Position numbers and translations under genes: made by a program
Part shown: positions 247 to 61,893 of the stretch, piece by piece
Layout of the letters: each line of letters begins with the position of its first letter
How positions within the stretch are numbered: position 1 is the stretch's first letter
Notes under the pieces: generated by a model
What the model was told of the DNA's origin: nothing
Seen by the model: only the letters and a program-made list of their open reading frames with translations
Database searches by the model: none
DNA from: Methanobacteriales archaeon HGW-Methanobacteriales-1
Lineage (GTDB): Archaea > Methanobacteriota > Methanobacteria > Methanobacteriales > Methanobacteriaceae
Direction: 5' to 3'
Assembly (NCBI GenBank): GCA_002839705.1
Contig: PGYO01000003.1
Location: 124,001 to 188,000 of the forward strand
DNA: 64,000 nucleotides

Positions 247-1086
247 CTATTGTTTTAATTTACTTTCCACGATTTCAGCACTAGCATTGCATTTTTCTAA
301 AATGATATTGTTGATACTTTTCTCCAGCATACTTGGTTTAAAAGCAAGCCATATATTAGATTCAGGTTCATTTATTTCCTTGACATTTACAATACCTTCA
401 GAATCCCGGAGAGCATCCACTGCACAAGGAATATCAGTATCTACCATTAATCTCACAGTAGCATATCCCCAATTAGTCATTTTCTTTGCCAATTCAATTT
501 TATCCATCTCTTTTTCAATTAGGCCAGTTATATAAGAATAAAGAGGCAATAATGTTATGGCTACGGCTAAACCAGCAATAGTTGTAATTAATGATATGTA
601 AATTCCTTCAGCCATGCCTGAAGAGTTTCCACCAATACCCATAGCTTTAAAAGTGTACCATATACCAATTACCGTACCAATAAGGCCTAAAAGAGGAGCA
701 ATCTCGATCATGGTCCTCAGCATGCTTAAACCCTTAGTCATTACACTCATTTCAACGATGAAAACCCTTTCCATCGCATCTTCAACTTCAGATTTATTTC
801 TATATCCTATTTTTAGAGCTTCAGAAATTATTCTAGAAACTGGATTTTGATAGTGGCCAATAGATTTTAGAGCTTCCAGTGATCCGCCGCGCTCCATCGC
901 ATCATTGACCGTGTTAATAATCTGAGGTGTACTTGCTTTAGAAATTTTTCTTAAATAGTGAATCTTTTCAAGAGATGTAATAAGACCATAAATTCCAATT
1001 ATAGCAATAATATAAGTTATTATTCCCCCATTTTTGAACATTTCTAAAATGGTGCCAAAAGTACTGGTAAAGAAGTCGAATATCAT
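247..1086 (-). CDS. exbB: ExbB/TolQ/MotA-family proton channel
   Basis: This 279-residue protein has the three membrane helices of the ExbB/TolQ/MotA family: one near residues 20-42, and two in the conserved C-terminal half near 125-150 (IAPLLGLIGTVIGI) and 160-188 (ISLITTIAGLAVAI). The GLxGTVxG and TTxAGL motifs line the proton path in characterised members. An ATG at 1084-1086 follows a GGAG ribosome binding site. ExbD lies immediately downstream, which supports a two-subunit motor. In bacteria such motors energise TonB- or Tol-type systems; here neither TonB nor an outer membrane is expected. Family assignment is secure, but the physiological partner is unknown. Confidence 0.9.
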   Translation of the reverse strand: MIFDFFTSTFGTILEMFKNGGIITYIIAIIGIYGLITSLEKIHYLRKISKASTPQIINTVNDAMERGGSLEALKSIGHYQNPVSRIISEALKIGYRNKSEVEDAMERVFIVEMSVMTKGLSMLRTMIEIAPLLGLIGTVIGIWYTFKAMGIGGNSSGMAEGIYISLITTIAGLAVAITLLPLYSYITGLIEKEMDKIELAKKMTNWGYATVRLMVDTDIPCAVDALRDSEGIVNVKEINEPESNIWLAFKPSMLEKSINNIILEKCNASAEIVESKLKQ

Positions 1087-1417
1087 GATATCTCCGCAAT
1101 TAGGTTTGATTTGTCCAATTATATTACTTTATTGAGTTATTAAATAAGGAGTATAATCCATTTTTTAATATTTTTTTTTAAAGGAATATTAAAAAATAAT
1201 TTTCCATGAGTTTAGATAAGTTAATTCTTGATATTTTAATTTGATATTTTTAATGATAGATGATGCTATAATAAATTAGTATTTAAAAATAGTGTTTTTA
1301 TAGATGATTTAAAAAGTTTTATAAATCTTTATTTTTGGTTTTTAAGATCTAAGAATACATTAAAATACCTTTAAAAATCAAATTTTTAATTATTTGGGAT
1401 TGGAAGATTTATATCAA
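1087..1417. other. AT-rich intergenic stretch
   Basis: No gene is seen. The stretch lies upstream of exbB and downstream of rnhB, both on the minus strand. TATA-like minus-strand tracts occur near 1275-1330 and could be the exbB promoter, but none is distinctive. Confidence 0.5.
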
Positions 1418-2047
1418 CTATTTTTTGTTTTTAAGTTTTTCTACAGTTGCCCATGATTTTCTAACAAAATCAGGAAGCTCATCATAGTCAAATTTCTGTA
1501 AAAAAGCCTTTGTTCTTGGATCACTAGGATATCCAGAGCCCATACCTCCAATTTTTTTGTATTGACGGTTTAATTTTTCAATTTCTATGTCTCTTTCAAC
1601 TTTAGCCACAATAGATGCCGCTGCCACGGGAATATATTTATCATCTGCCCCGTGCTCGGATATAACATCCATTTCCTCACCTACCACTTCCTTAATTTGA
1701 CGGGTAAGTCTGGCTGGATCAACATCTACCGAATCAATAATAACAGAATCTACCTGAGCCATTTTAATGATTTTAATCATGGCAATTTTTTCAATCTCAT
1801 TTAAATTAACATCCTTGGCCCGTAAATTATCTATATCCTGGGCAGTTATTTTAACAACATGGCAATCAGCCATTTTCCGGATTTTACGGGCTAAAACATT
1901 TCTTCGGGAGGGTGTTAGTTTTTTAGAATCTTTTATTCCCATTCTCTCCAAAATAACTATTTTTTCTTGAGGTATGGCTGCACCACATACAACTAAAGGG
2001 CCTAGGACCGGGCCCCTTCCCGCTTCATCGATTCCTAAAATCTTCAT
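1418..2047 (-). CDS. rnhB: Ribonuclease HII
   Basis: This enzyme cleaves the RNA strand of RNA-DNA hybrids and removes primers and misincorporated ribonucleotides. The protein opens with the family signature GIDEAGRGPVLGPL, whose Asp-Glu pair binds catalytic metal. It continues with DSKKLTPSRR, the acidic IIDSVDVDP strand, SIVAKVERD, and GSGYPSDPRT near the C-terminus. Its length of about 210 residues is normal for archaeal RNase HII. I prefer the ATG at 2047 because the protein then begins MKILGIDEAGRG and a GGAT box is suitably spaced. An in-frame ATG three codons upstream (2056) is also possible. It is a single gene with no close neighbours. Confidence 0.95.
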   Translation of the reverse strand: MKILGIDEAGRGPVLGPLVVCGAAIPQEKIVILERMGIKDSKKLTPSRRNVLARKIRKMADCHVVKITAQDIDNLRAKDVNLNEIEKIAMIKIIKMAQVDSVIIDSVDVDPARLTRQIKEVVGEEMDVISEHGADDKYIPVAAASIVAKVERDIEIEKLNRQYKKIGGMGSGYPSDPRTKAFLQKFDYDELPDFVRKSWATVEKLKNKK

Positions 2048-2056
2048 TTTTTTCAT

Positions 2057-2508
2057 CCGCTTTTTTAAATTAAGTTTTAAATAATTATTATATAATATCC
2101 AAAATACATTAAATTACTATTAAGTTGTTCTTTAAGCTATATTAAATTAATAAGTCTATATATTAAACAGGTGCAATATTAGGCCCCATATAATGATTTT
2201 CTAAAAGTTTTAGAAAAAATAATTAAATTTTAAGAAAATTATTAAGAATATATTTTATGATATCTTGAAAAATGAAATACTTAATTTTTACAATTAGCAC
2301 TGATTAAAAATTTCTAAAAACATATTAATTAATCATCATTTTTAATTCCATTACAGAATTGCTAATAGAAAACTCAAATTGCCTACAAAAAATTTTATAA
2401 GTTATTAATAAAGGGACAGTGCGTTAAAAAAAAATATTTTAAAAATATTATATTTTTGAAATAATATTTTCTACTAAAAATTAAAAAAAAGTTAAAAATA
2501 GATTAAAT
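2057..2508. other. AT-rich intergenic stretch
   Basis: About 450 bp between the 3' end of the mreB-like gene and the start of rnhB. I see no open reading frame with a ribosome binding site and no convincing RNA structure. It presumably holds the rnhB promoter and the mreB terminator. Confidence 0.5.
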
Positions 2509-3582
2509 CTATTTCATTGCTTTTAATCTGACTTCAGGCTCTAGAGCACGAGGTTCAGCAGCCACAATAGCCGCTCCTTTGGCCACTACAGTCATAGGAT
2601 CATTGGAAATTTCTACTGGAATTCCCACTTCTTCAAATATTCGTTCTTTAAGGCCTTTTAATTGAGATGTTCCTCCAACAACAACTGTTTTATTGTATAC
2701 TCCCGAAATTAACTCCGGAGATAACCTTTCCAGAACAGCAGCCAATGCTTCCACAATTTTTACTACAATTGGCTCCGCAGCATTAGCAACCATAGTTGAA
2801 TCAACTTCTATCTCTTTAGGCTTGTTAGTCTTCATGCACTTACCAATTAAGCTGGTTGTTTCTATTTCTAAATCTGCGTTTGAATGAACCATTCCAACCT
2901 TAATTTTAGCTTTTTCAGCTTCATGAATGCCTATTTCAACTTCATATTTCTGTTTAACTTGGTCTACGATGTTATCATCCACATCATCCCCACCCCAGCG
3001 AATGGTTTCTATATCAGTTATTCCACCCAAAGATATGACAACCAAATCACTGGATCCGGCACCAATATCAATTACCATGGTTCCTGCAGCTTCAGCAATA
3101 GGCAAACCAGCACCAATTGCTGCAGAAAGGCCTTCACTAATTACAAGAACATAGCTGGCCCCGGCTTTTCGTCCAATTTCTTCAACAGCATTGCGTTCCA
3201 CTTCAGAAGCGTCACCAGGAATACCAATAACAATCCTATCAATACTGGTCGTATCTTCTTCAGAACCCATTTCCATAGCAAAAACTAAAAGTGCTTCGGC
3301 TTGTGCAACACTCTCAATAACACCTTTTCTTAAAGGTCTTACTGCTACAATGTCTTCAGGAGTTCTTCCCAGCATAGACTTTGCTTCTTCACCCACAGCT
3401 AACACATAAGAAGGATCATCCTTTTTAACTGCTACGACTGAAGGAATTTTATATAAGTCAAATTTATCACCAGATGGTTTTGCTACCACAGTGTTAAGAG
3501 TACCCAAATCAATACCTAAAGTACTGGTAAGGGCTTTCTTTCTATCTTCTTGCTCTACCTTCTTTTTCCCAAATGAAAACAT
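2509..3582 (-). CDS. mreB: MreB-like actin-fold ATPase
   Basis: This 357-residue protein has the actin/Hsp70 ATPase motifs in order: phosphate-1 GIDLGTLNT (residues about 23-31), the connect region around IGIPGDASEVER, phosphate-2 VIDIGAGSSDL, and the adenosine motif VVVGGTSQLKGL. Length and motif spacing match bacterial MreB rather than DnaK, which has a long substrate-binding tail. In rod-shaped bacteria MreB guides wall synthesis; pseudomurein-walled methanogens carry this homologue. The ATG at 3582 follows GGAGGAATAAT, a strong ribosome binding site that sits inside the end of the upstream gene, so the two genes are translationally close. Its role in archaeal shape or wall growth is inferred. 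Confidence 0.9.
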   Translation of the reverse strand: MFSFGKKKVEQEDRKKALTSTLGIDLGTLNTVVAKPSGDKFDLYKIPSVVAVKKDDPSYVLAVGEEAKSMLGRTPEDIVAVRPLRKGVIESVAQAEALLVFAMEMGSEEDTTSIDRIVIGIPGDASEVERNAVEEIGRKAGASYVLVISEGLSAAIGAGLPIAEAAGTMVIDIGAGSSDLVVISLGGITDIETIRWGGDDVDDNIVDQVKQKYEVEIGIHEAEKAKIKVGMVHSNADLEIETTSLIGKCMKTNKPKEIEVDSTMVANAAEPIVVKIVEALAAVLERLSPELISGVYNKTVVVGGTSQLKGLKERIFEEVGIPVEISNDPMTVVAKGAAIVAAEPRALEPEVRLKAMK

Positions 3583-3583
3583 A

Positions 3584-4213
3584 TTATTCCTCCTCTAAGA
3601 TCTTATTAAATTCTACAACGAATACCTTGTTAGATTTGGCCACTTCATTGATTTTTTCAATATTTTTTTCCTCTACAGATATAAGAATCGTAGATAAACC
3701 CACGTCAGTCATTTTAAATAGTGGATCTACAACATCCCTAATAATTTGAGGTAAATGGTCAGTTAAATAAACATCAGTTTCAATAAATCCAGTAGTGGTA
3801 TCTTCTAAAATAAAAGAGAATTCAATTTGGCCTTTTTCAGCATCACCTGCAAATTTCTTAATGGCATTATCCGGCCCAGCTAATAAAAGGAGATTTGGCT
3901 CATTTTTTACATAATAAGGGGCAATTTTAAGATATGCTCCGCCATTTTCTTTACAAATTAAACTTAATTCCCTTATTTTATCAGTATCACCATATACCAT
4001 GATAAAATCAAATTTTTTTCTTACAAATGACTCTTTTAAATCAACATGTTCTCGGAACAAAATTTTAACCCTTTCTTTAGAAGAAATAGCAGAATATGCT
4101 ACATTATTAACCATTTCTTCATTTCCAGCAATTACGCACCAAATGTTGTCAGAGCTTTGGGTGGTGGAAACCTGTGCTGCTTTTCGGAGAACTTTTATTT
4201 TACTTTCTATCAT
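3584..4213 (-). CDS. Conserved hypothetical protein in operon with the MreB-like gene
   Basis: I do not recognise this protein. It has about 209 residues, is soluble, has no signal peptide or membrane helix, and ends in an acidic tail. Its stop codon is one base from the start of the mreB-like gene, so the two are almost certainly co-transcribed and may work together. Two short segments (IWCVIAGNEE, and later DFIMVYGDTDKI) suggest an alternating alpha/beta fold in which strands carry small residues; I cannot name a family. The ATG at 4213 is chosen as start; an in-frame GTG at 4222 is an alternative with no better ribosome binding site. Confidence 0.8.
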   Translation of the reverse strand: MIESKIKVLRKAAQVSTTQSSDNIWCVIAGNEEMVNNVAYSAISSKERVKILFREHVDLKESFVRKKFDFIMVYGDTDKIRELSLICKENGGAYLKIAPYYVKNEPNLLLLAGPDNAIKKFAGDAEKGQIEFSFILEDTTTGFIETDVYLTDHLPQIIRDVVDPLFKMTDVGLSTILISVEEKNIEKINEVAKSNKVFVVEFNKILEEE

Positions 4214-4222
4214 TAATACCAC

Positions 4223-5028
4223 GTCTTTTGTTCATGGTAATCAATAAATATTTTATCGGTTATCACAAATATTTACAATTCAAAATATGTGTCCAAAATA
4301 TATATCATTTTCATAATTGCATATAATAAAATTAAATAAAACCATTGAATTTATGTTGTTTTACCCACATTAATAAAGTTGATTCAATTTCATTAATGAT
4401 AATTAATTTATTAATTGAATCCAGTCTGAGATTTAATTCATTTAAATAAATCTAATTATTTAAATTTATTCCCAATATTTATCCATATTCTTATTATAGC
4501 TAATAATATTTGGAATATACTGATTTTTATTATGCTAAATTAATATTCAGCATATAAATTATATATACTTTGATGTGATAAAATATTTGGCAGATTACCG
4601 ATAAAAAGATGATAAAAAGATATTATCCGGTGAAAATAGAATTATAAAGACTATTTTGATTCAAATATCTTAAAAATAGCATATTCTAGATAATTAATTA
4701 TAAATTATTTGATGGGAAAATAATATATAAAATATAATTTGAATAAATTCATTAAATCTAAAATAAACTTTGAATTTACCTATCCTAATTTTTATATTTA
4801 ATTTATATTAATTTATTAATTTCCAGTCAATTCATGAGCAAATTAGATAAGTTAAAATATTTAATACCCCGGTAGATGGCCTCAAATATAATAGCATTCA
4901 ATTAAACTTAATCTTCTTAATAATAGTTTAAAAATATTATATTGCTTAAACAAATTAATTATTAATATGATTTTTATTCATAGTGTGGATTTTATTATAT
5001 TATTCACACAATTTTTTGGTGATAAATA
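4223..5028. other. Long AT-rich divergent intergenic region
   Basis: About 800 bp between divergently transcribed genes. I found no protein-coding potential. TATA-like tracts are frequent (for example near 4555-4570). Close to the plus-strand gene, GTGTG at 4983-4987 pairs with CACAC at 5005-5009 around an AT-rich core. The length is unusual for a compact archaeal genome. Confidence 0.5.
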
Positions 5029-5697
5029 ATGTTCGTTGAAGGAACTCTCAAAAAGGCAAGTATTCTCCTTACAATTTCCGTTTTACCATTCTTATTTGGT
5101 TATTTTTTAATTACATTCTTCTTATTCTCCATAATTGCATTTTTCATGCAGTTTTTCAGAGACCCTAAAAGAAAAACACCTAGTGGTGAAGACATTGTTG
5201 TAGCGCCAGCTGATGGGAAAATTTTAACTGGAAAAATAGACCGTATTGAGACTTTATCATATGAAGACCCACTTATGGACTTATTACTTGAAAAAAACGA
5301 AAAAGGCGTTCTTATTAGTACATTCATGTCTCCATTTGATGTTCATGTGAATCGAGTTCCGATTTCAGGTAGAGTAATTAATTCCAAATATTGTCCTGGG
5401 AAATTTAAGATAGCTAGAAAAAGTGTTCTTGCTGAAAACGAAAAAAATTTAATTGTAATAGAAACTGAGTATGGTAAAGTCGGTGTTATTCAAATTGCAG
5501 GATTTGTAGCTAGGCGAATTGTACAATATGTCAATATAGGTGATTATGTAGAAATAGGAAGTAAAATAGGAATGATTAAATTTGGATCACGTGTTGATTT
5601 AATTGTCCCTGAAAAAAACTTTGAAATTATGGTTAAAGTTGGTGAAAGGCCAAAAGCTGGTGAAACAGTAATGGGTCGATTTATAAAAAAAGATTAA
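5029..5697 (+). CDS. asd: Archaetidylserine decarboxylase proenzyme
   Basis: It converts archaetidylserine to archaetidylethanolamine in the membrane and uses a pyruvoyl group made by self-cleavage. The 222-residue protein has two closely spaced hydrophobic N-terminal helices (residues about 10-42), then the soluble decarboxylase domain with FMSPFDVHVNR (about 99-109) and the cleavage motif FGSRVD, with cleavage expected between Gly186 and Ser187. This is the short archaeal/PSD-II-like form. The ATG follows GGTGAT. The synthase that makes its substrate lies 315 bp downstream on the same strand, so the pair covers two successive steps of polar lipid synthesis. Confidence 0.92.
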   Translation: MFVEGTLKKASILLTISVLPFLFGYFLITFFLFSIIAFFMQFFRDPKRKTPSGEDIVVAPADGKILTGKIDRIETLSYEDPLMDLLLEKNEKGVLISTFMSPFDVHVNRVPISGRVINSKYCPGKFKIARKSVLAENEKNLIVIETEYGKVGVIQIAGFVARRIVQYVNIGDYVEIGSKIGMIKFGSRVDLIVPEKNFEIMVKVGERPKAGETVMGRFIKKD

Positions 5698-6012
5698 TCT
5701 AAATCCTGTTTTTGATAATGTTTTTAAATTAATTAATAAATAGGAATTAAATCAAATACCATTTTTCAAAATATAAATATGTTATGCAAATCTAGTTATG
5801 TGATTTTTATAAAATTTAATAAAATCATAATAATAAAATTGCTTTAATCTTTTTTTAATACATAAATTTAGTAATATTAAATATAAATGGAATTATATCA
5901 AATATTAAGCAAGTATTAATTAAAATAATGAAAATTTGTTAATTGATGAAGTACTAACTGTTGATATTGAAATGAATATAATATTTATAAATAAAAAGGC
6001 GAGGCAAGAAAA
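5698..6012. other. AT-rich intergenic stretch between asd and pssA
   Basis: About 315 bp without a gene. TATA-like tracts close to pssA (around 5970-5990) suggest that pssA has its own promoter. Confidence 0.45.
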
Positions 6013-6741
6013 ATGAGTTTAGATACTACTCGAATGAAAGATTATGTATCTCTTCCAGATATTTTCTCCATCATAAATGCCTCTTTTGGTTTTTTATCGA
6101 TAATTATGGCCATGAATGGCGAATTAGTAATTGCAGCACAGTTTATACTACTTGCAGTTATTTTCGATTCCCTCGATGGTTGGGTAGCACGAAAAACAAA
6201 TAGAGATGATGAGTGTGGATTTGGAAAAAATATGGATTCATTATGTGATGTAATATCCTTTGGTGTTGCGCCGGGAATATTTTTGTATTCGGCCACTTTA
6301 ACCGCGGATATACGATACATTAATATAATAGTAAGTCTCTTAATAGTTATATGTGGTATTTTGAGGCTCTCTAGGTTCAACGTGATTTCAAATATTGGAA
6401 CCACCAGAGATAAATTTGTGGGACTTCCCATACCAGCAACTGCATTGGTGCTGTCATCATTTTATCTCAGCGGCCTTTTTACAACTGATGTTGCTCTAAT
6501 AATAATGACATTATCATCTTTATTAATGATAAGTACCATTGAATATTTTAAGCCAACGAGTGTAAAAACCGCAGGAATAATCTTGATTCTAATACTATCA
6601 GTTTGCATGCCTCAAAACATTCAAATTTATCTTATGAATATCCCCGCGAAGGCGTTATTCATCTTAAGTTTGATTTACATCATATTTATGCCGTTTATGG
6701 CCTTATTCACAAATCTAAAAAGTGGTCCACATGTTAGATAA
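6013..6741 (+). CDS. pssA: Archaetidylserine synthase (CDP-alcohol phosphatidyltransferase family)
   Basis: It transfers L-serine onto CDP-archaeol at the membrane. The diagnostic CDP-alcohol phosphotransferase motif is complete: DSLDGWVAR, then a Gly, then DSLCD (pattern D-x2-D-G-x2-A-R-x(n)-G-x3-D-x3-D), near residues 56-84. About eight hydrophobic segments span the rest of the 242 residues. The start ATG follows an AGGCGAGGC-type box. The 3' end overlaps the next gene by 11 bases, which implies co-translation with the CpaB-like protein. Substrate specificity for archaeol is inferred from lineage and from the decarboxylase upstream. Confidence 0.92.
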   Translation: MSLDTTRMKDYVSLPDIFSIINASFGFLSIIMAMNGELVIAAQFILLAVIFDSLDGWVARKTNRDDECGFGKNMDSLCDVISFGVAPGIFLYSATLTADIRYINIIVSLLIVICGILRLSRFNVISNIGTTRDKFVGLPIPATALVLSSFYLSGLFTTDVALIIMTLSSLLMISTIEYFKPTSVKTAGIILILILSVCMPQNIQIYLMNIPAKALFILSLIYIIFMPFMALFTNLKSGPHVR

Positions 6742-8140
6742 GTTGAAAGGTAACAAAAAAAATAGTAAGGATACACCACCAGATCTGAGGAAACCCGACG
6801 AAACAGAGTCGGCTGACGTGGGAGGCAAAATCAAAGATCTGGTCGGTAAAATGTCTGGAAAAAATGGTGAGAAAAAGGGAGCGGCAGCACCTAGCGGAGG
6901 CCCCAAGAAAATGCCCCGTCCTATGCCCAAGCCCAAAATAAAACCAAAACCTGTGAATAAACCTAATGCTCCTAAGTTAAAGGTTAAAGGAGATCCTAAA
7001 AGGCCCCCTAAAAGATCTGGTGGTGCCGCAGGAATTAGTACAGGTGGTTTTGGACGTCGAATACCTGATGACGATCAAAAAACTTTGATAGGTGCTGTTG
7101 TTTTTGCAGTTATTTTAATTGTTTTAATAGCTTCGCTCTATTATTTCTTAGTTTATTCACCATATCAACAAACACTGCAAGGTGCTAAAGATGTCAAAAT
7201 AGGTGAAATTGATGCTTATTTCAAAGGTCCTCTAGCTACTGATCCTCAGAAAACAAATCTTTTGAATCAGATCAATGCTGGAACAACAGCCGAAGAAGTT
7301 TTAGCGGTTGATGTGCTTGGCCCAGCCACAAAGTCGTGGAGAGCCTATCAGACACAACAGATAAAGACTAAAAAAGATCCTTTTGGAAGAGTTATGGTAG
7401 TTTATTCTACTGATTCTAGTCAATCGGTAACTGCTACAAATCAAACAGCCGCACCTGATTCTCAAAAAGATGTTATAATGAAAATAGCCGATGCTCAAAC
7501 ATTTGTTAATCAGGCAGATGCTACAGTGCTGGCAAATATGGAAATTCAAACACCAGATACTGTTGCAGTACCAATAATGATTTCCAGACTACAAGCCGCC
7601 GGTGGTTTGATAAGTGTTGGAAATATGGTTGACGTTTATGTGAAAACAACTGCTGAAGCTGCTCCTGCAGCAACAAATAATAGTACAAATAATACAACAC
7701 CAGCCACAACAACTACCAGTTCAGATACTCCTAAGATAAGTGGGGCAACAGTCTTAGCAATCTTAAGAGCAAAAGACAGTGGTACGATTGATGCTAGCCT
7801 GTTAAATAGTCAGACATTAACTATGAACGATATTAGTTCCACTAGTTCAAATCAACAAACATCATCCACTGATGTAGAACAATTGCTCAGAGCAGCTGCT
7901 TCAGGTGGATTTAATTCTGCACAAACAGCAGCATTGCTACAAAATTACGGAATTAAACTCTCAGACTATGAACGTTCATCTAATTTAGGAGATTTAGATA
8001 CAACATACCTCGTTCTTCTAGAAGTTCCAAGAGAAGATGTATCTTTATTAATACAAAGTTCAGATAGTTTGATTCTGACACTTCCAACACAACAAGCGCC
8101 TAGTTGGATGACTAAAGAGTTGCTAAGCATATATGGTTAA
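6731..8140 (+). CDS. Single-pass membrane protein resembling CpaB/RcpC (SAF-like); DUF515-type
   Basis: About 469 residues. A cytoplasmic N-terminal 110 residues is very rich in Lys, Pro and Gly. One membrane helix (about residues 118-142, LIGAVVFAVILIVLIASLYYF) follows, then a large external domain with a Thr/Ser/Asn-rich linker near residue 310-335. Two stretches resemble CpaB/RcpC pilus assembly proteins: VPIMISRLQAAGGLISVG followed by VDVY, like the CpaB 'GGLIRPGDRVDV' segment, and near the end VLLEVPREDVSLLIQSS, like CpaB's 'TLEVTPEDAEKL'. I believe this is the archaeal DUF515 family, from memory. ATG 6731 is preferred over GTG 6722 because the latter lacks a ribosome binding site. It overlaps pssA, and a strong terminator follows. 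Confidence 0.75.
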   Translation: MLDKLKGNKKNSKDTPPDLRKPDETESADVGGKIKDLVGKMSGKNGEKKGAAAPSGGPKKMPRPMPKPKIKPKPVNKPNAPKLKVKGDPKRPPKRSGGAAGISTGGFGRRIPDDDQKTLIGAVVFAVILIVLIASLYYFLVYSPYQQTLQGAKDVKIGEIDAYFKGPLATDPQKTNLLNQINAGTTAEEVLAVDVLGPATKSWRAYQTQQIKTKKDPFGRVMVVYSTDSSQSVTATNQTAAPDSQKDVIMKIADAQTFVNQADATVLANMEIQTPDTVAVPIMISRLQAAGGLISVGNMVDVYVKTTAEAAPAATNNSTNNTTPATTTTSSDTPKISGATVLAILRAKDSGTIDASLLNSQTLTMNDISSTSSNQQTSSTDVEQLLRAAASGGFNSAQTAALLQNYGIKLSDYERSSNLGDLDTTYLVLLEVPREDVSLLIQSSDSLILTLPTQQAPSWMTKELLSIYG

Positions 8141-8149
8141 TAAGTGGAA

Positions 8150-8196
8150 TTTGGTTGAATTCATAAGACAAATTCAACCAAAACTTTTTTATTTTT
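8150..8196 (+). terminator. Intrinsic-type terminator after the CpaB-like gene
   Basis: A perfect 12-bp inverted repeat (arms 8150-8161 and 8171-8182, nine-base loop) is followed at once by the T-rich run CTTTTTTATTTTT. It sits 10 bp after the stop codon. The structure closes the pssA/CpaB-like transcript and insulates the secreted-protein/sortase pair. Confidence 0.75.
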
Positions 8197-8241
8197 AATA
8201 AATTATATTATTAATACTAAAAGAGTATTAACTAAGGGGTC

Positions 8242-9160
8242 ATGAAAATGAATATCAATAAAATTTGCATAATGTTAATAATATCAATTGTTGCTTTTTC
8301 AGGAATAATTTCATTAGGAATGTCTTCAGCAGAAACTTGGGTTAGTGAAAGTCCAAATGCTACCAGTTACAGAATTTCTCATTTAACTGCCACCATTACG
8401 GTAACAGTTAAGAACACCAATGATCATGTTCAATATTTTAAGATGAGTCAAGTTTATCAGGGAAGTTTAACAGATAACAGCACTATTAAATGGCTTATTG
8501 ATTGGACGGATCCAACAGCTGTTAAAATGGTTAAATCAAGATCTCCAGAGTTAGGGGGAGATTATGGTTGGCCAATAAAAGCAGGGGAAACAAAAACTGT
8601 CAGTTTCAAGCTGCGTGCCACAGGCCTGATGGGCGGCATACCAACATATATTAATGCACGCAGATTCCTCTGTCACAAACTACTGGCCACTGATAAACGA
8701 ACCTGGATTAGAAGGCTCATGGTTCCAGCCTAATGAACTAGAAATATTAAATCCAACTCTGGACATTAGAAAATGGACTGGGCATTTCACATTCCGTTTA
8801 ACCAATTATGATGATCAGAAAGTTTATGGAATCGTGAGAGCACCAGTAGCACCTACCAGTTCAAAATTAACATCAAGTAGTCCAGATGCATTTATTGATG
8901 ATTCAAGCTTAGCAAGTGGTATCGCTGCATGGAACGTTGTAATGAATCCAGACACATATAAAGACTTTTCATACACATACACCTGGCCTAAAACCAGTAG
9001 CAGTTCTTCAACCGCAAAGGCTTCATCTGCATCACTTACTAGTGGATCCAGTGGAGATTCCACAGTACCCAGTAAAACAACTGGTGTCCCCTATGGACTA
9101 TTCGTAGTTGGAGCCCTGGTTACGGTAGCTGGAGTTGCATACGCTAAATTTATGAGATAG
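8242..9160 (+). pseudogene. Secreted, C-terminally anchored surface protein, interrupted by a frameshift
   Basis: Two overlapping reading frames form one protein. The first (8242-8733) has a signal peptide (residues about 8-30, cleavage near SSAETW) and a beta-rich domain. It loses sense after about 8660, where the second frame (ending 9160) continues with SSVTNYWPLINEPGLEG and so on. The second frame ends in a Ser/Thr-rich linker, then KTTGVPYG, a hydrophobic helix and a basic tail (KFMR). That is a sorting-signal-like end, and the next gene is a sortase. One extra base near 8650-8662 would explain the break; sequencing error or a real lesion cannot be told apart here. The intact protein would have about 305 residues. 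I do not recognise the ectodomain. Confidence 0.75.
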
Positions 9161-9163
9161 AAT

Positions 9164-9215
9164 AGCAAATAATTCTTTTATTTGCTTTTAATTAATTTTT
9201 TTATTTTTTATTTTA
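9164..9215 (+). terminator. Terminator between surface protein and sortase
   Basis: Perfect 9-bp stem (arms 9164-9172 and 9178-9186, loop TTCTT) starting four bases after the stop codon, followed by TTTTAATTAATTTTTTTATTTTTT. It would stop or attenuate transcription from the surface protein gene into the sortase. Confidence 0.7.
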
Positions 9216-9394
9216 TTAATTATTTTAAGAATAATTTAATATCTGAAAATAATAACTTTGGATATTTTATATTCTTTATTTATTTCTTGAATTAGTTGAA
9301 ATTACAAAATTCTGCTGATTTGTTAAATTTTTATAATAGAAAGACTAAAGAGAGTAAGATAATAAAAATTTTGTTACATTAATTGGGAAATAAA

Positions 9395-10117
9395 ATGAAA
9401 CTATCAACTATTTTTATCATAGCCGGGATGTTTATCATCTCTCTTTATTGTTTAATTGATGTGAGTTACTATGCCTCTCAAATTGAGGTTGAAAATAATC
9501 TAACTAATGTCCCCATGGTTTCTATTCCATCAATTGATGTCCAGCAAAAAATAAATAATAAATCCGTATCGTATGGTGTTTACCACGAACCAGAATCATC
9601 TGACCCCGGGGATGGTACAGCAATTATATTTGGTCATAGAACACTTTATGGTTCCCCTTTTTACAGTTTAGATAAGTTGAAAAATGGTAGCAGCGTATTT
9701 TTAGATTGGCCTGGAATAGGGAATGTAGAATATATTGTAAACCGATCTTTTGTGGTGTCTGCATCTTATCGAATTTCAGTAGAACAGGGTCAAAAATTAT
9801 TTTTAATAACTTGTACTCCTATTGGATCAGATGCACAGCGGTTAATTGTAGAAACTGATTTTAAAAAAATAAGCCCATTCCAAAAAACTAGCACCCAGGA
9901 TAATCCTAAAAGTTACTATGGATTACTAATAATCATAGGATTTTTAGTAGCTGGATTGACATTAACCTATTTTTATCCGGTCGAAGATGACAAAATAATT
10001 CTATTATTGATAACCATAGGGTTAACGTTATTTTTAACATTAGGATACATATTTCCAATTCCAGCAGAATTTATTTCATCCCAAATAACAAGTATAAATA
10101 ATATTTTTGGAATTTAA
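9395..10117 (+). CDS. Sortase-family transpeptidase
   Basis: It is predicted to cleave C-terminal sorting signals of secreted proteins and join them to an acceptor at the cell surface. The 240-residue protein has an N-terminal membrane anchor (about 4-26). The catalytic set is His81 in FGHRTLYGS, Cys140 in LITCTPIG, and Arg149. Two further membrane helices at the C-terminus (about 173-192 and 199-218) are unusual for classical SrtA. The ATG at 9395 is chosen because TTGGGAA precedes it at a good distance; an in-frame TTG at 9383 is possible. The upstream neighbour carries a TG-x-P plus helix plus basic tail, so it is a likely substrate. The acceptor in a pseudomurein wall is unknown. Confidence 0.88.
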   Translation: MKLSTIFIIAGMFIISLYCLIDVSYYASQIEVENNLTNVPMVSIPSIDVQQKINNKSVSYGVYHEPESSDPGDGTAIIFGHRTLYGSPFYSLDKLKNGSSVFLDWPGIGNVEYIVNRSFVVSASYRISVEQGQKLFLITCTPIGSDAQRLIVETDFKKISPFQKTSTQDNPKSYYGLLIIIGFLVAGLTLTYFYPVEDDKIILLLITIGLTLFLTLGYIFPIPAEFISSQITSINNIFGI

Positions 10118-51554: not shown

Positions 51555-53840
51555 ATGAAACCAACCACCATTAAATCAATTATAGTCTTTTTAATTATCT
51601 TAGTTTTATTTTTAGCTCCAGTATCAGCAGCCCAACTGGAAGTAGGTCCTAGTCAAACCTACAGCACCATTCAAGGGGCCATTGATGCTTCCACTGACTC
51701 AGACATTATAAATGTGCACCAGGCCACCTATGCGGAAGATGTGGTGGTAAATAAAAAACTAACCATACAATCCAATGCTGGCGATAATGTAACTCTGATG
51801 CCAGCAAATACTGGATTTAAAGTGATAAAAAATGGAACTGATGATGCCAGTGGAACCACCATAAAAGGATTTACCATTATTAATTCCCCCTCAGGTACCG
51901 GCATTAATGTTAGTGTTAACAACTGCATTATAAAAAATAACCATATAACTGGGGGAACCACCGGAATAGATATCCTGGGTAACGATACTCTGGTAGAAAA
52001 CAATTCCATATCCGGTGTATTGAATAGTAGTATCCAGGTGGGATACAGTTCTATTATAAATAACTCCAGCACAATCATCAGCACAGATAACTGCAAAATC
52101 CAAAATAACCAAATTAACGGTGGATTAAATGGAATAGCTGCAGTAAGTGACCATATAACAATTAAGGGGAATAATATATCAAAGGCCCAAGAACACGGGA
52201 TTTTTCTTTTTGGATGTTACCCCACTATAACCGATAACAGAATAATTGACATGATGGGATCAGGCCCTAAAACCGGGATTTCATTAGCCTCCATAAACCT
52301 CACCGGCACCACAGGCATTATTATAACCAGAAACAATATAAGCAATATTAATAGTAGCAATGACACGGCCCAGGCACTGGACACATTTATAATGAGCACC
52401 AATTCCAGTCTGGATAGTATCCTGGTTTCAAAGAACATAATCTCTGAAATCTATGGTATGGGAAAAATGACACTGGTCTCAGTGGTGGCCCTGGCCTTAA
52501 ATGGAAGCATTTCTACCATAAAATTAATGGAAAACACCATCACCCAGGTGGCCAATACCGGAGTAAACAGTACCAGTACCGGGCTTTCACTGGTGGCCAT
52601 GGGATTTGATAAAAACAACAATACCACCACCTCAAGCAACTTAACTATCTCTAAAAACAATATTAGTGACATTAATAGCTCCGGTGCAAACAGCACCATT
52701 AAAGGAATTTCATTTGTGCAATTATGTGGAGGAGATTCTTCTATTTTTGAAAATAATATATTTAACTTCAAATCAGATAAAATGGCAGTTGGTATTTCAT
52801 TTGCAGGTGTTGATTACACCAATTTACAATCCATCAGCAGTATAAATAAAAATAATATTTCTAACCTCACATCCAACAACATAAGTTCTGGTATTCAGTC
52901 AGTGAACCTGGGAAATACCTACCTTCAAAATAACATCATATCCCAGGTGACCAGCCCCCGGACCAAATACATCCTGGTGCAAAGTCCACTTAATGGAAAT
53001 GCCACTCTTACCGGGAACAATCTAGAAGGGACAGGAATTGGGGAAGGCATGGCCGTTAATGGAAATCACACCATTATCAATTATAACCGCATAGTTAATT
53101 TCCAACACTACATCCAGAACATAAATAGCAGTGAGGCCGGTACAATTAGTCAGGGCAATGCCCTTCCCAGTGACAGTGAAATTAGAGAATATCTACTTTC
53201 ACATTATGGAACCAATTTAACTGAGGAAGATGTGACTGCCATTATAGATGCGTATCATAAAGTAATTGATGCCCAAGATAATATACCAAGCAATACCAGT
53301 GCCCTTTTCAACTGGTATGGTATCAACAGCGACCCCGGGACTAATAAATTCTTAAAAGGTAATGGGTCACTAGATTATTCACCATGGCTGGTTTTAAATA
53401 TCACTGCCCAACCATCACATATCCAACTAGGGCAAAATTCATCTATCACCGCCCAGGTTTATCAGGATTCAGAAGGCTTTGATCACAGCAGCAACGCAAT
53501 CATGTTCTTCAGCGGGCCCCAAGTAACGTTTACCACTAATTTAGGTAATGTAGGAAGTAAATCTATTACTCTTCCCTGGACCAATGGCCAGGCCTCCGCT
53601 GTTTTAAGGGCAGATGAAGGTGAAGGTTTAGCTACCTTAACTGCCTCCGATTATCAAACCGTTCAGACCTTGGTGAGAATTGGAGACGTACCCTTGCCTG
53701 ATGATGGAAACTCAACTGGAAAAACCACAGCGAATGCAGCGAGCACCATTACTATGCAAAACACAGGAATGCCCATAAATTACTTGTTATTGGCCCTGGT
53801 ATTGGTTATTGGTGGATGCTTACTTCCAAAAAGAAAATAA
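51555..53840 (+). CDS. Surface-anchored right-handed beta-helix protein
   Basis: A 761-residue secreted protein: signal peptide (residues about 5-27, ending VSAAQ), then LEVGPSQTYSTIQGAIDAS typical of NosD/pectate-lyase-like proteins. Many NNxI-type parallel beta-helix repeats follow to about residue 545, then a beta-sandwich domain (about 610-715, STSAQV-like SITAQVYQDSEGF) and a Thr-rich linker. The C-terminus reads MQNTGMPINYLL, a hydrophobic helix and PKRK. This TG-x-P plus helix plus basic tail matches the protein next to the sortase and is probably a sorting signal. A role as adhesin or polysaccharide-binding protein is inferred. Confidence 0.85.
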   Translation: MKPTTIKSIIVFLIILVLFLAPVSAAQLEVGPSQTYSTIQGAIDASTDSDIINVHQATYAEDVVVNKKLTIQSNAGDNVTLMPANTGFKVIKNGTDDASGTTIKGFTIINSPSGTGINVSVNNCIIKNNHITGGTTGIDILGNDTLVENNSISGVLNSSIQVGYSSIINNSSTIISTDNCKIQNNQINGGLNGIAAVSDHITIKGNNISKAQEHGIFLFGCYPTITDNRIIDMMGSGPKTGISLASINLTGTTGIIITRNNISNINSSNDTAQALDTFIMSTNSSLDSILVSKNIISEIYGMGKMTLVSVVALALNGSISTIKLMENTITQVANTGVNSTSTGLSLVAMGFDKNNNTTTSSNLTISKNNISDINSSGANSTIKGISFVQLCGGDSSIFENNIFNFKSDKMAVGISFAGVDYTNLQSISSINKNNISNLTSNNISSGIQSVNLGNTYLQNNIISQVTSPRTKYILVQSPLNGNATLTGNNLEGTGIGEGMAVNGNHTIINYNRIVNFQHYIQNINSSEAGTISQGNALPSDSEIREYLLSHYGTNLTEEDVTAIIDAYHKVIDAQDNIPSNTSALFNWYGINSDPGTNKFLKGNGSLDYSPWLVLNITAQPSHIQLGQNSSITAQVYQDSEGFDHSSNAIMFFSGPQVTFTTNLGNVGSKSITLPWTNGQASAVLRADEGEGLATLTASDYQTVQTLVRIGDVPLPDDGNSTGKTTANAASTITMQNTGMPINYLLLALVLVIGGCLLPKRK

Positions 53841-56825: not shown

Positions 56826-57300
56826 TATCCATTTTCCATTTTTGCAATTAGATTGCTTCTGATTAAAATTTTTATAACTACTCTTCAAGTCTCATTTTTT
56901 TTTAATATAAAATGTATAAAAAGCTTGCATTATAAATTAAAGGCATTATCAACAAGATTTTCTTAGTTAGTTTCCTTCATTTCCAATCTTATTTTACAAC
57001 CTTTTATTTTACTAAAACTAATTAATTAAGAATATATTTCATTAATTTAATCTAATTTCTTTTATAATTGTGTAAATCCAATATTAAACGTTTTTAATCG
57101 TCCTATTTTGGCCATGATAGTCACTTTAAATTAAAAATCATTTAGTAAATAATTAATATTAGTTTTAACCAAGATAAAGCGTTAAAATAATATTTTGTTA
57201 TGAAATGTGGGGATTTCACTTTATTTGTTTTAAAAGTAATCTTTTCTACAACCTTATTATTAATACTTATTTTAACTATTCAAAATTAATCCAGCATAAA
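56826..57300. other. AT-rich intergenic stretch
   Basis: About 475 bp between the lipoprotein and the large adhesin. No gene with a ribosome binding site is seen. The frame of the adhesin stays open upstream to 57205, but this part is AT-rich, lacks protein-like composition, and precedes the ribosome binding site. Confidence 0.5.
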
Positions 57301-57315
57301 GGAGGTGAAAAGATA
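57301..57315 (+). promoter_or_regulatory. Ribosome binding site pointing at an ATA start codon
   Basis: GGAGGTG (57301-57307) is a near-perfect anti-16S match. At the normal distance of five bases lies ATA (57313-57315), in frame with the adhesin signal peptide. No ATG, GTG or TTG occurs in that frame between the box and the hydrophobic core, except far upstream. Confidence 0.5.
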
Positions 57316-60300
57316 CAAAAAAAAGAAAAAACAAACGATCAAAGAATTTTAGTCCTATTAATGCTTTTAACCTTGGCCTTTGTGTTTACTTTTTCCATTA
57401 GTGACGTTTCAGCCGCTCCTGGCGATACCATTTATGTAAACGCTTCAGGGGGAAATGACTCCTGGGACGGGCAATCTGCCACGTACACCGGAGCCAGTGG
57501 GCCAAAACTCACAATTAAAAACGCTGCAGGAACTGTAAACCCAAACGGAATAATAAACATTGCAAACGGGACATACAACGAGAACAACATAACCATTACC
57601 AAGAGTATGAAACTCATTGGGCAAAGTCAAACTGGCACCATCATAAATGGGATGCAAACTAATACCATATTTTTCATTGGATCTGGAATTAGTGTTACCA
57701 TGAGTAATTTGACCTTAACTAATGGAAAAACAACCAGTAATGGAGGAGCCATCTTTGATTGGACACATGACCCTTACTATTACTACTACAATGGTGGTGC
57801 AATTCACAATAGAGGCAATTTAACAATTATCAACTGTAATTTCACCAGTAACACTGCCTTTAATAATGGAGCTGGTGGGGCCATCTACAACGATGCCAAT
57901 TTAAATGTAACGGGCAGCAGTTTCATTAATAATGGGGCCAATAAAGGTGGTGCTATCTACAATTGTGCTAATGCCAATGTAACTTTCAGTAGATTATCTG
58001 GAAACTCAGCATATCAGGGAAATTCAATTTACAATTGGATAGGAACCACTGATGCACAACTTAACTGGTGGGGATCCAATGCCGGACCTTCTGGTACAGT
58101 AGGAACTGTAAATACCGGAGCATGGCTAATTTTGAAGATTACTGCAGATACTACTATTGAATACGGTGAAACTTCTGATATAACCGTCAGTATGTTAAAT
58201 GATTCCAATGGAATTTATCATAACCCATCTAATGGATGTTTATATAATATTCCAGTAGCATTAACCGGGACAAAGGGTACATTATCCCCTTCAAGTGCTA
58301 AAACAGTTAATGGAATCGTTCAATCAGTTTTCACAGCCACTAGTGGTGGTGATGCTGTTATAAACGCCATTGTTGATGGTCAAGCCGTTTCTATAGGAAT
58401 TGCCGTAAACCCTACTTACAGTACACTCACTTCTGTCAACAATTTTAAAGGTCAAAACGTAACCCTGATTGTTCAGGTGGTTGATAGTGATCACAATTCT
58501 GTAAATGAAGGCCAAGTCACTTTTAAAGTGAATGGAACCATCGTAAGAACTGTGAATGTCACATCCGGACAGGGCAAGTTAAACTGGACTATACCATTAA
58601 ACTGGAATGCTGGAACTTACAATATTACAGCTAATTACTCTGCAACTAACTATGCTAGTTCTAATAGTAGTGCCATGTTGACTGTGGATAAAACACCGAC
58701 AATATTAACCTTAAATAATGTAAGCAGTTTCCATAACCAGTACGTAAACATAATTGCTAATCTAACAGATTATTATGGTAATGCACTGGGTGGTAGGACT
58801 GTAAACTTTACTATTAATGGTGACCCTACAACATACACCGCAACTACACTAGCTAATGGATTAGCCACAATAAACTACCAAATAATTCAGGACACTAACA
58901 GCTACAGCATATCCTCCTCATTCAGTGGAGATAGCAATCATTTATCCTCAACATCTAACATTGGAAACCTTAATGTAAGTAAAACACCGACCAATACCAC
59001 CGTAAATTCATTAAACAACTTCTCAGGCCAAAATGTAACTTTAGCTGCCCAGGTACTTGATTACTACAATCAACCCGTACCAAACGGCCAAGTTAGATTT
59101 ACTATAGGAAACGCCACCCCAGTTACTGTAAATGTCGTATCCGGCATTGCAACAACCATCTGGACCATCCCATATTCCTGGACAGCTGGAAACTACAATA
59201 TTGTTGCTGAATACCTTGGAACAAATAATTTAACAGTTTCCAATGCAGTTGGAACATTAACTGCAGATAAGATACCTACCAACTTAACTCTAAGTAATGT
59301 ATCGAATTTTTGGCATCAATACGTGGACATAGTAGCAACTTTAACCGATTACTACGGTGCTCCATTAGCTGGGAAAAATATAACCATTACTCTAAATGGT
59401 GATTCAGTAACCTACAACTTAACTACAAATTCAAGCGGTTCAGCCACACTAAACTACCAAATAAACCAAGATAGTGGAAATTACTCAGTTTCGGGATTAT
59501 TTAATGGAGATAGTAATTACTTACCTACTAGCAATCTCGCAAATCTGAATGTGATTAAAACACCAACCAGCATTAGCATAGACACTGTAAACAACTTCTC
59601 AGGCCAAACTGTGACCCTGATTGCCCATATAGTGGATTACTACAATCAAACTGTGAAAAGCGGTCAAGTTAGATTTACAGTAGGAAACACCACACCAGTT
59701 ACAGTAAATGTCGTATCCGGCCTAGCCACACTCAATGGAACAATACCACTCAGTTGGGCGGTTGGAAACTACAATATCACTGCAGAATACTTAGGAACCA
59801 GTAATTTAACCGTTTCTAATGCAACTGGAACCTTAAATGTCGATAGAACTCCAGTTAATGTAACTGTAGAAGCTGGAAACAATTTCTATCACCAATACGT
59901 AGACATAATAGCCAATATCACAGATTACTATGGTAATCCATTGGTTAACAAGTTAGTGACCTTCCAAATTGATGGAGACTCCAGTAATTACACTGCAAAC
60001 ACAGATTCCAATGGTTTAGCCGCACTACAATACCAGATAGTTCAGAATGTAGGAAACTACAACATAAAAGCCATGTTCGGTGGAGATGTTGATTACTTGA
60101 ATTCTACAAATAACGGAACTCTTGCAGTAACTAAAACACCTGCTCAGTTAACTATGAATAATATAACCAGTTTCCCTGGTCAAAGTGTTAATCTGACAGC
60201 TAGTGTATTCGATTACTACAATAGCACCTTAGATGATGGTCTAGTTACTTTCAAAGTAAATGGAACCATTGCAGGTACTACTAATGTTTCATCTGGAGTG

Positions 60301-61893
60301 GCCATTTTGTCAAATTGGCAAATATCATCCTCTTGGGATGCTGGAAATTATGAAATAACCGCCGAGTACACTGAAAACAATGATTATCTAAGTAATTCAA
60401 CTAACAGCACACTGATTGCCAATTTAATACCAACTAGCATCACTATTGACCCATTAACTGGATATAAATCAGCTAATGTTACTTTGTCTGCAAAAATAGT
60501 GAACCTGGTGAATTATATTTCATTACAAGGCAAAAGTATTGATTTCTATGTAAATGGTACTAAAGTAGGGTCTGGATTAGTAAATGAAGATGGCATCGCT
60601 ACCTACAATTACCACATCCTAGAAAACATTGGAACATACGATATTACTGCGATTTTCAGTGAAGATAGCCAATTTACTGCTTCAAACAATACTAATACTC
60701 TGACCGTGGATCCAACACTTACCAACGTGACAATGAATCCGATAAGTGGTTATAGGGGAGATAATATCCCATTAAATGCCAAATTATGGGATTTAATCTT
60801 TGATATTCCAGTAAATGGAAGAACCATAGATTTTTTCATTAATGGAACTAATGTAGGTTCTAATACAACGGATATCAACGGAATAGCTACTTTCAGTTAC
60901 ACAATTGTAGAAAATATTGGTGATTATGTATTATCTACTGTTTTCAACGGCGATGAACAATTTGGAGCTTCAAATGGCACCACTATATTGTCAGTCAATG
61001 CAACACCAACAACCATTGTTATTGAAAACGTAACAACCAACAAAGGTCAAAATGTGGTTTTAAATGCCACATTATGGGATACATACCGCAATCAAACTAT
61101 AGCTGGTCAAAATATAACTTTCAAAGTTAATGGAGCAGTTATTGGTTCTGTAATCACTGATACTAATGGAACAGCCATTTTAAACTATACTGTAGATTTA
61201 ATAGGTGGAAAATACCCAATTGAAACAGAATTTGCAGGAGATACACAGTATGCTAACTCTTCAGCAATAGGAACACTCAAAGTACTATCCGCTAACCTGT
61301 ACATTCAGGTGAAAACCAGTAAAAACAATCCAAAACTAGGTAAAAAATTCACCCTAACCTATAAACTTGGAAATAAAGGCCCAGATTCAGCAAATAATGT
61401 CATAGTAACCATATTCATGCCAAAAGGATTCCAAATAACTGGAATTACTGGTGATGGTAACTGGACTTACAACCAATACAATAACACCATAACTTGGACA
61501 CTAAAAACTGTGGAAGTAGGTGACCCTTACCTCTACATTACCGGGAAAAACACCAACACTGGAAACCATATATTTGCTTCAAGTATATCCTCAGAAACCT
61601 ATAATTCCAACACAGAAGGCGTAACAAGCATTAAAATTGTTACCCCAACCAATAAAAACAATCACCACACAAATACCGTCACAGTAAAAGCTGCAACACA
61701 AATAAACACAGCTAATGCAACAACCGGAAATGCAACCGACAATCAGAATACAACAAACACAACCAGCGATTCCAATTCAACTACAGCTGAAAAAACTCCA
61801 GTAAACTGGTTATCCTATTGGTGGATACTAATACTGCTTATTTTAGTAGCCGGTGGATACTGGTACTTACTGGCAAACAATAAAGGAGAATAA
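57313..61893 (+). CDS. Large surface adhesin: beta-helix, ten Ig-like repeats, DUF11, membrane anchor
   Basis: About 1,526 residues from the proposed ATA start. A signal peptide (KEKTNDQR then a hydrophobic core ending ISDVSAA) is followed by a pectate-lyase-like beta-helix region with GDTIYVNASGGNDSWDG and GGAIYN repeats. Then come ten Ig-like domains of about 95 residues (roughly residues 370-1330), a DUF11-type domain (KLGKKFTLTYKLGNKGPDSANNV), a Thr/Asn linker and a C-terminal helix. The tail lacks TG-x-P. Domains 1-7 alternate between two types with a 192-residue period. An ATG at 57205 would add 36 residues before the ribosome binding site, so it is unlikely. Adhesion to surfaces or cells is the family role. 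Confidence 0.85.
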   Translation: MQKKEKTNDQRILVLLMLLTLAFVFTFSISDVSAAPGDTIYVNASGGNDSWDGQSATYTGASGPKLTIKNAAGTVNPNGIINIANGTYNENNITITKSMKLIGQSQTGTIINGMQTNTIFFIGSGISVTMSNLTLTNGKTTSNGGAIFDWTHDPYYYYYNGGAIHNRGNLTIINCNFTSNTAFNNGAGGAIYNDANLNVTGSSFINNGANKGGAIYNCANANVTFSRLSGNSAYQGNSIYNWIGTTDAQLNWWGSNAGPSGTVGTVNTGAWLILKITADTTIEYGETSDITVSMLNDSNGIYHNPSNGCLYNIPVALTGTKGTLSPSSAKTVNGIVQSVFTATSGGDAVINAIVDGQAVSIGIAVNPTYSTLTSVNNFKGQNVTLIVQVVDSDHNSVNEGQVTFKVNGTIVRTVNVTSGQGKLNWTIPLNWNAGTYNITANYSATNYASSNSSAMLTVDKTPTILTLNNVSSFHNQYVNIIANLTDYYGNALGGRTVNFTINGDPTTYTATTLANGLATINYQIIQDTNSYSISSSFSGDSNHLSSTSNIGNLNVSKTPTNTTVNSLNNFSGQNVTLAAQVLDYYNQPVPNGQVRFTIGNATPVTVNVVSGIATTIWTIPYSWTAGNYNIVAEYLGTNNLTVSNAVGTLTADKIPTNLTLSNVSNFWHQYVDIVATLTDYYGAPLAGKNITITLNGDSVTYNLTTNSSGSATLNYQINQDSGNYSVSGLFNGDSNYLPTSNLANLNVIKTPTSISIDTVNNFSGQTVTLIAHIVDYYNQTVKSGQVRFTVGNTTPVTVNVVSGLATLNGTIPLSWAVGNYNITAEYLGTSNLTVSNATGTLNVDRTPVNVTVEAGNNFYHQYVDIIANITDYYGNPLVNKLVTFQIDGDSSNYTANTDSNGLAALQYQIVQNVGNYNIKAMFGGDVDYLNSTNNGTLAVTKTPAQLTMNNITSFPGQSVNLTASVFDYYNSTLDDGLVTFKVNGTIAGTTNVSSGVAILSNWQISSSWDAGNYEITAEYTENNDYLSNSTNSTLIANLIPTSITIDPLTGYKSANVTLSAKIVNLVNYISLQGKSIDFYVNGTKVGSGLVNEDGIATYNYHILENIGTYDITAIFSEDSQFTASNNTNTLTVDPTLTNVTMNPISGYRGDNIPLNAKLWDLIFDIPVNGRTIDFFINGTNVGSNTTDINGIATFSYTIVENIGDYVLSTVFNGDEQFGASNGTTILSVNATPTTIVIENVTTNKGQNVVLNATLWDTYRNQTIAGQNITFKVNGAVIGSVITDTNGTAILNYTVDLIGGKYPIETEFAGDTQYANSSAIGTLKVLSANLYIQVKTSKNNPKLGKKFTLTYKLGNKGPDSANNVIVTIFMPKGFQITGITGDGNWTYNQYNNTITWTLKTVEVGDPYLYITGKNTNTGNHIFASSISSETYNSNTEGVTSIKIVTPTNKNNHHTNTVTVKAATQINTANATTGNATDNQNTTNTTSDSNSTTAEKTPVNWLSYWWILILLILVAGGYWYLLANNKGE

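Follow-up and report, generated by a model that had tools for sequence, protein, structure and literature searches.

Which proteins does the sortase of a pseudomurein methanogen act on, and by what signal would it recognize them? Sortases of these archaea have long been annotated, but only one or two LPxTG-like partners were recorded in each genome and no acceptor was known (PMC2812497, PMC11915815). The question is raised by the window, i.e., the whole analyzed stretch of 64,000 nucleotides from a Methanobacteriales genome of 2.57 Mb, in which a sortase gene directly follows the gene of a secreted protein that carries T-G-x-P ahead of its C-terminal helix. To judge from sequence comparisons across the order, it is very likely that T-G-x-P is the long-missing signal read by the sortase for the surface fixation of proteins. 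The features at the locus are as follows.

9383–10117, plus strand: membrane sortase with an N-terminal helix, a sortase barrel and extra C-terminal membrane helices (PF04203, alignment A5, AlphaFold, Foldseek)
9635–9637, 9812–9814 and 9839–9841, plus strand: catalytic codons of the sortase for His81, Cys140 and Arg149, respectively
8242–9160, plus strand: secreted protein of about 306 residues with a TG-x-P tail, directly 5' of the sortase, its frame split by a 1-base insertion (open reading frames and intact orthologues)
9059–9157, plus strand: predicted C-terminal sorting signal of that protein, VPSKTTGVPYG followed by a helix and a basic end (R), read directly and matching tail profiles A2 and A4, with the TGVP codons at 9080–9091

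The sortase frame comprises 244 codons, and its first ATG, at 9395, gives a protein of 240 residues. The product scores 63 bits with Pfam PF04203, whose cut-off is 26.6, and His81, Cys140 and Arg149 (numbered from that ATG) are invariant in alignments of 15 (A3) and 36 (A5) members. The AlphaFold model, with a mean pLDDT of 86, has a beta barrel between one N-terminal helix and three helices at the C-terminus; in Foldseek, solved sortases of classes A, C and E match it with a probability of 1.00 and E-values down to 3.7e-11. The sortase with these three residues that had been named in the initial annotation is borne out by the domain score, the invariant positions and the predicted fold. No sortase class is assigned, because none of the NCBIfam class cut-offs is reached (class C, 43.1 against 160; class E, 29.2 against 160). 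By its domain, its His-Cys-Arg set and its predicted fold, the protein is a sortase-superfamily enzyme, with transpeptidase activity as the predicted function.

The upstream gene had been taken for a single secreted protein ending in KTTGVPYG. The tail stands on direct reading; the single open frame does not, as the gene lies in two overlapping frames (8242–8733 and 8654–9160) with one extra base near 8660 (8655–8665) relative to the intact 311-residue gene of locus L079. The base reflects either a sequencing error or a genuine mutation. Intact orthologues of 299–359 residues (L079, L080, L082, L083, L085 and others) carry the same tail, one of them with TG-A-A, and orthologues lie directly 5' of the sortase in three families and several genera. 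In most Methanobrevibacter-type relatives the neighbor gene is missing, with the sortase and the DUF515 gene retained. AlphaFold modeled the protein of about 306 residues with a mean pLDDT of 56 (from a four-sequence alignment), and no solved relative was found.

Two further surface proteins of the window bear on the signal.

51555–53840, plus strand: beta-helix surface protein, predicted sortase substrate (PF13229, 28 bits; tail MQNTGMP read directly, TGMP codons at 53763–53774; tail-profile match 5.3e-16)
57205–61893, plus strand: 1,562-residue Big_3_5/DUF11 protein with a C-terminal helix that lacks TG-x-P (direct tail reading and domain matches)

Their C-termini read as first described: the beta-helix protein ends in QNTGMPINY, a helix and PKRK, and the large protein ending at 61893 has a C-terminal helix without the motif and is predicted to be a non-substrate of the sortase. 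A search of the genome with the beta-helix tail returned nine C-terminal tails including that of the query's own protein (MQNTGMP, MQNTGTP, MQHTGIP twice, MQDTGAP, MQNTGLP, MQSTGIP, MQHTGLP and MQHTGVP), and the SKTTGVP of the sortase neighbor brings the verified number to ten. Eight surface proteins beyond the pair noted initially thus end in M-Q-x-T-G-x-P, a helix and a basic tail, and the ten proteins are otherwise unrelated. The background frequency of TG.P is 51 in 213,697 sampled ORF positions of the genome (2.4e-4 per position), or about 0.003 by chance per 12-residue stretch preceding a helix. Even two such tails would be unlikely by chance, and ten were verified. Two more tail-profile matches (G000:C12:74601-74663 and G000:C13:53637-53699), which cover profile positions 1–21 only and lie in frames of 1347 and 1238 residues, are candidate tails.

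An unbiased scan of one third of the genome also found C-terminal-helix tails without TG-x-P, on very large proteins and on others; TG-x-P is therefore one tail class among several. Giant proteins of 975–2079 residues in the sample from this genome (L273–L312), some with AYEVSK... tails, have C-terminal helices without TG-x-P, and a similar large helix-tailed protein is found in the sortase-less genus described below, which suggests a separate anchoring class.

The motif had initially been given as T-G-hydrophobic-P and as different from LPXTG. T-G-x-P holds, but hydrophobic residues are not the only ones that follow G (Asn and Thr are also seen there), and the separation from LPXTG has to be withdrawn. 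Most adhesins share the longer motif V-x-M-[Q/K]-x-T-G-x-P. In other genera, the L-P positions of LPXTG are taken by M-K (MKNTGNP, MKPTGAP) or T-P (TPATGNP, TPKTGNP), and some relatives have a literal L-P (LPKTGLP, LPKTGNP, LPATGNP), the Methanobrevibacter-type tails being LPKTGNP, LPATGNP and TPATGNP. Of 102 distinct TG-plus-helix tails, 83% have a proline at the third position after T. The exported proteins end in a T-G core, a helix and a basic tail, which is the layout of LPXTG signals. Given the literal LPKTGNP and LPATGNP of some relatives, the tail is, judged by its sequence, a diverged form of the LPXTG signal that carries an additional proline, rather than a separate motif. None of the catalogue models claims ten representative tails as sortase signals; against the LPXTG models they stay below the cut-offs, the best scores being 15.4 against 15.9 for TIGR01167 and 12.9 against 20 for PF00746. 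MYXO-CTERM was rejected as the identity of the tail, since the single tail over its cut-off, by 0.3 bit, is read as a composition effect.

The pairing of enzyme and signal was surveyed in 151 Methanobacteriales genomes, in which the tail was scored with a broad profile. A sortase-family match is present in 119 genomes (118 over the Pfam cut-off), the long, window-type sortase in 117 and the T-G-x-P tail in 122. The initial annotation had proposed that enrichment of TG[VMIL]P ahead of the final helix should be confined to sortase-bearing genomes, and this was observed: the tail occurs in all 18 sortase-bearing genera, the tail-bearing genera all have the sortase, both enzyme and tail are absent from 20 of the 20 genomes of genus g13, and the sortase-less genome G011 has no tail. 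Among genomes at least 90% complete, 73 have both, 14 neither, one the sortase only and two the tail only (g13 contributes 13 to these counts, by subtraction from the tallies), which corresponds to a Fisher p of about 2e-13 with kinship ignored. Seven genomes have the sortase and no tail above threshold; six of these are less than 90% complete, the exception being G027 with 95%. Twelve assemblies are tail-only. Of these, the six that were inspected represent assembly gaps and are rejected as counterexamples: in G025 the contig breaks at the locus, and G044, G067, G018, G057 and G109 lack DUF515 as well, so that the locus is not assembled there. The other six are 63–84% complete.

The sortase-less genomes can be read at the locus itself, which includes two further conserved genes.

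6722–8140, plus strand: DUF515 / RcpC-CpaB-like membrane protein; its gene is a conserved partner on the 5' side of the sortase locus (PF04415, 82 bits)
2512–3582, minus strand: MreB homologue of the same conserved cluster (PF06723, 340 bits), equivalent to the gene that PMC11915815 places in cluster C as MreB/DnaK-like

DUF515 lies 5' of the sortase in most relatives and is retained in the sortase-less g13 and G011; it must therefore serve a function independent of the enzyme. The five g13 genomes inspected have the gene order pssA-DUF515-mptD with nothing between DUF515 and mptD (the deletion loci, including that of G011, are L231–L235 and L236). G011, whose genus is otherwise sortase-bearing, shows the same clean deletion, and no TG-x-P tail was found in it even at E = 3. 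These are two independent sortase losses, both without the tail. The original proposal of a candidate archaeal sortase recognition motif is supported by the co-occurrence of tail and sortase and by their co-loss in g13 and G011. As a side observation, the region 250–10117 groups an ExbB/MotA channel, MreB, two phospholipid-synthesis genes (phosphatidylserine-decarboxylase and CDP-alcohol-transferase families), DUF515 and the sortase. This group corresponds to cluster C of PMC11915815 (MreB, DUF515, then sortase), where the orthologue group of this sortase, labeled "Sortase E", and RcpC/CpaB-like, coiled-coil and MreB-like genes form a cluster conserved in pseudomurein archaea; that study set the cluster aside as probably outside wall synthesis.

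Beta-helix adhesins are plentiful in g13, with 30–78 domain matches per genome, and among the large ones that were read none has a hydrophobic C-terminal helix. In an 800 kb sample of the g13 genome G114, proteins with a C-terminal helix and no TG-x-P persist, among them a 426-residue protein with a tail very similar to the one on a 420-residue protein in the window's genome. Given the persistence of other C-terminal helices, it is therefore the TG-x-P class that vanishes with the sortase. We infer that g13 is Methanosphaera, for which PMC2812497 lists zero sortases. In Methanosphaera stadtmanae, 39 of 42 adhesins have a single N-terminal anchor, and 11 adhesins of Methanobrevibacter smithii are anchored at both ends (PMC11532034). 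The g13 adhesins without a C-terminal helix agree with the N-terminally anchored Methanosphaera adhesins of that study.

The predicted fold, the catalytic residues, the signal, the genomic pairing and the co-loss of enzyme and signal are the basis on which the gene at 9383–10117 is interpreted as the general Methanobacteriales sortase, with the C-terminal [L/M/T-P/Q/K-x]-T-G-x-P, helix and basic tail as its sorting signal, a reading that is held with good confidence. Substrates would be exported, as their signal peptides indicate, and their tail helix would then hold them in place. If the enzyme works like the sortases studied so far, the bond between T and G would be cleaved by Cys140 with formation of a thioester, and an amino group on the outside of the membrane would receive the new Thr carboxyl. 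As acceptor, a free amino group of the pseudomurein stem peptide (e.g., of lysine) or of its precursor would be most likely, so that the adhesins and the neighbor protein of about 306 residues would become fixed covalently to the wall. A pseudomurein acceptor is favored because the sortase is general, its putative clients are many and unrelated, and the cluster is conserved in pseudomurein archaea.

Other explanations differ in the enzyme, the acceptor or the fate of the tail. Processing of the tail by another enzyme is very improbable. The archaeosortase family PF09721 is absent from this genome and present in just 3 of the 151 genomes of the order, a near absence on which it is rejected as the tail processor. 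A second sortase of about 199 residues does exist in this genome, adjoining an MscS channel gene (L002, G000:C1:24128-27502, positions 1483–2082, minus strand). No TG-x-P gene was found at its locus, and the tail-bearing neighbor gene adjoins the long sortase only. This MscS-linked enzyme is confined to genera around g1 and two other families, a range narrower than that of the tail, and is rejected on this ground; it is absent from g4, g7 and g8 and from the tail-rich g11 genome G107. The richest genomes of g4, g7, g8 and g11 (e.g., G008, G014, G016, G107) have 8–36 tails and the long-type sortase only. The second sortase is therefore not needed.

A sortase-dependent polymerization, in which a class C pilin-sortase-like enzyme would couple TG-x-P proteins not to pseudomurein but to lysine residues in other subunits, the neighbor of about 306 residues perhaps being one, is unlikely, though less so. 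Class C pilin sortases are among the best profile and structure matches, but the scores of class A and class E are close behind. The conserved neighbor DUF515 resembles RcpC/CpaB of the Flp pilus; at the sortase locus, however, no repeated pilin-like gene was seen. A dedicated substrate gene does adjoin the sortase, yet it is missing in most Methanobrevibacter-type relatives that keep the enzyme, and the substrates would be many unrelated large adhesins. Between these two in probability, and still quite unlikely, is a tail that serves as a membrane anchor only, T-G-x-P being the structural start of the helix and remaining uncleaved. A helix with a basic end has the look of a simple stop-transfer anchor, and in PMC11532034 the helices at the C-terminus of methanogen adhesins are interpreted as anchors. 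The co-loss evidence consists of two independent deletion events, and the tail could still be a plain anchor. Such an anchor, however, would have no need for T-G and no reason to vanish when the sortase gene is deleted, C-terminal helices without TG-x-P persist in the sortase-less genus, and the proline at +3 recurs in most TG tails.

The proposed sortase system resembles several known ones. With the LPXTG signal (TIGR01167 / PF00746) and the Gram-positive class A sortase it shares the motif, C-terminal helix and basic tail, the T-G core, the His-Cys-Arg sortase fold and, in some members, a literal LPKTG or LPATG; it differs in that L-P is mostly M-Q, M-K or T-P, in the added proline, in scores under the LPXTG cut-offs and in the pseudomurein wall. 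Class E sortases (LAXTG), under whose label PMC11915815 places the orthologue group, have the same fold, the His-Cys-Arg set and the TC-x-P active-site segment. Unlike class E and class C, the latter being the best NCBIfam match, the present enzyme scores under both cut-offs and has extra C-terminal membrane helices, and its signal is not LAXTG. Archaeosortases ArtA/ArtC with PGF-CTERM/PEF-CTERM likewise read a tripartite C-terminal signal on archaeal surface proteins, but the enzyme family is unrelated and nearly absent in Methanobacteriales, and the motif is different. A further precedent is the sortase mru1832 of Methanobrevibacter ruminantium M1 with the LPxTG-like adhesin mru2147 (PMC2812497), from the same order and with at least one LPxTG-like partner; there, 1–2 LPxTG proteins per genome were recognized (one in M. 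ruminantium, two in M. smithii) and the T-G-x-P class was not described. No description of this class was found in the literature searched, which did not cover the 2005 LPxTG survey, and an earlier mention in Methanothermobacter or Methanopyrus is possible.

Taken more broadly, pseudomurein archaea may possess a general sortase system that fixes dozens of adhesins covalently to pseudomurein via [L/M]-x-x-T-G-x-P, and Methanosphaera-type lineages may have converted their adhesins to N-terminal anchoring once it was lost; this wider picture is about as likely as not. Once verified, the signal would provide as many as about 36 candidate substrates of the sortase in a single genome and would explain the helices at both ends of some methanogen adhesins. 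Protein attachment to an archaeal cell wall would thereby become directly testable by mass spectrometry. Since these adhesins are thought to mediate contact with partners in the gut and rumen, this would also offer a handle on methane-forming communities.
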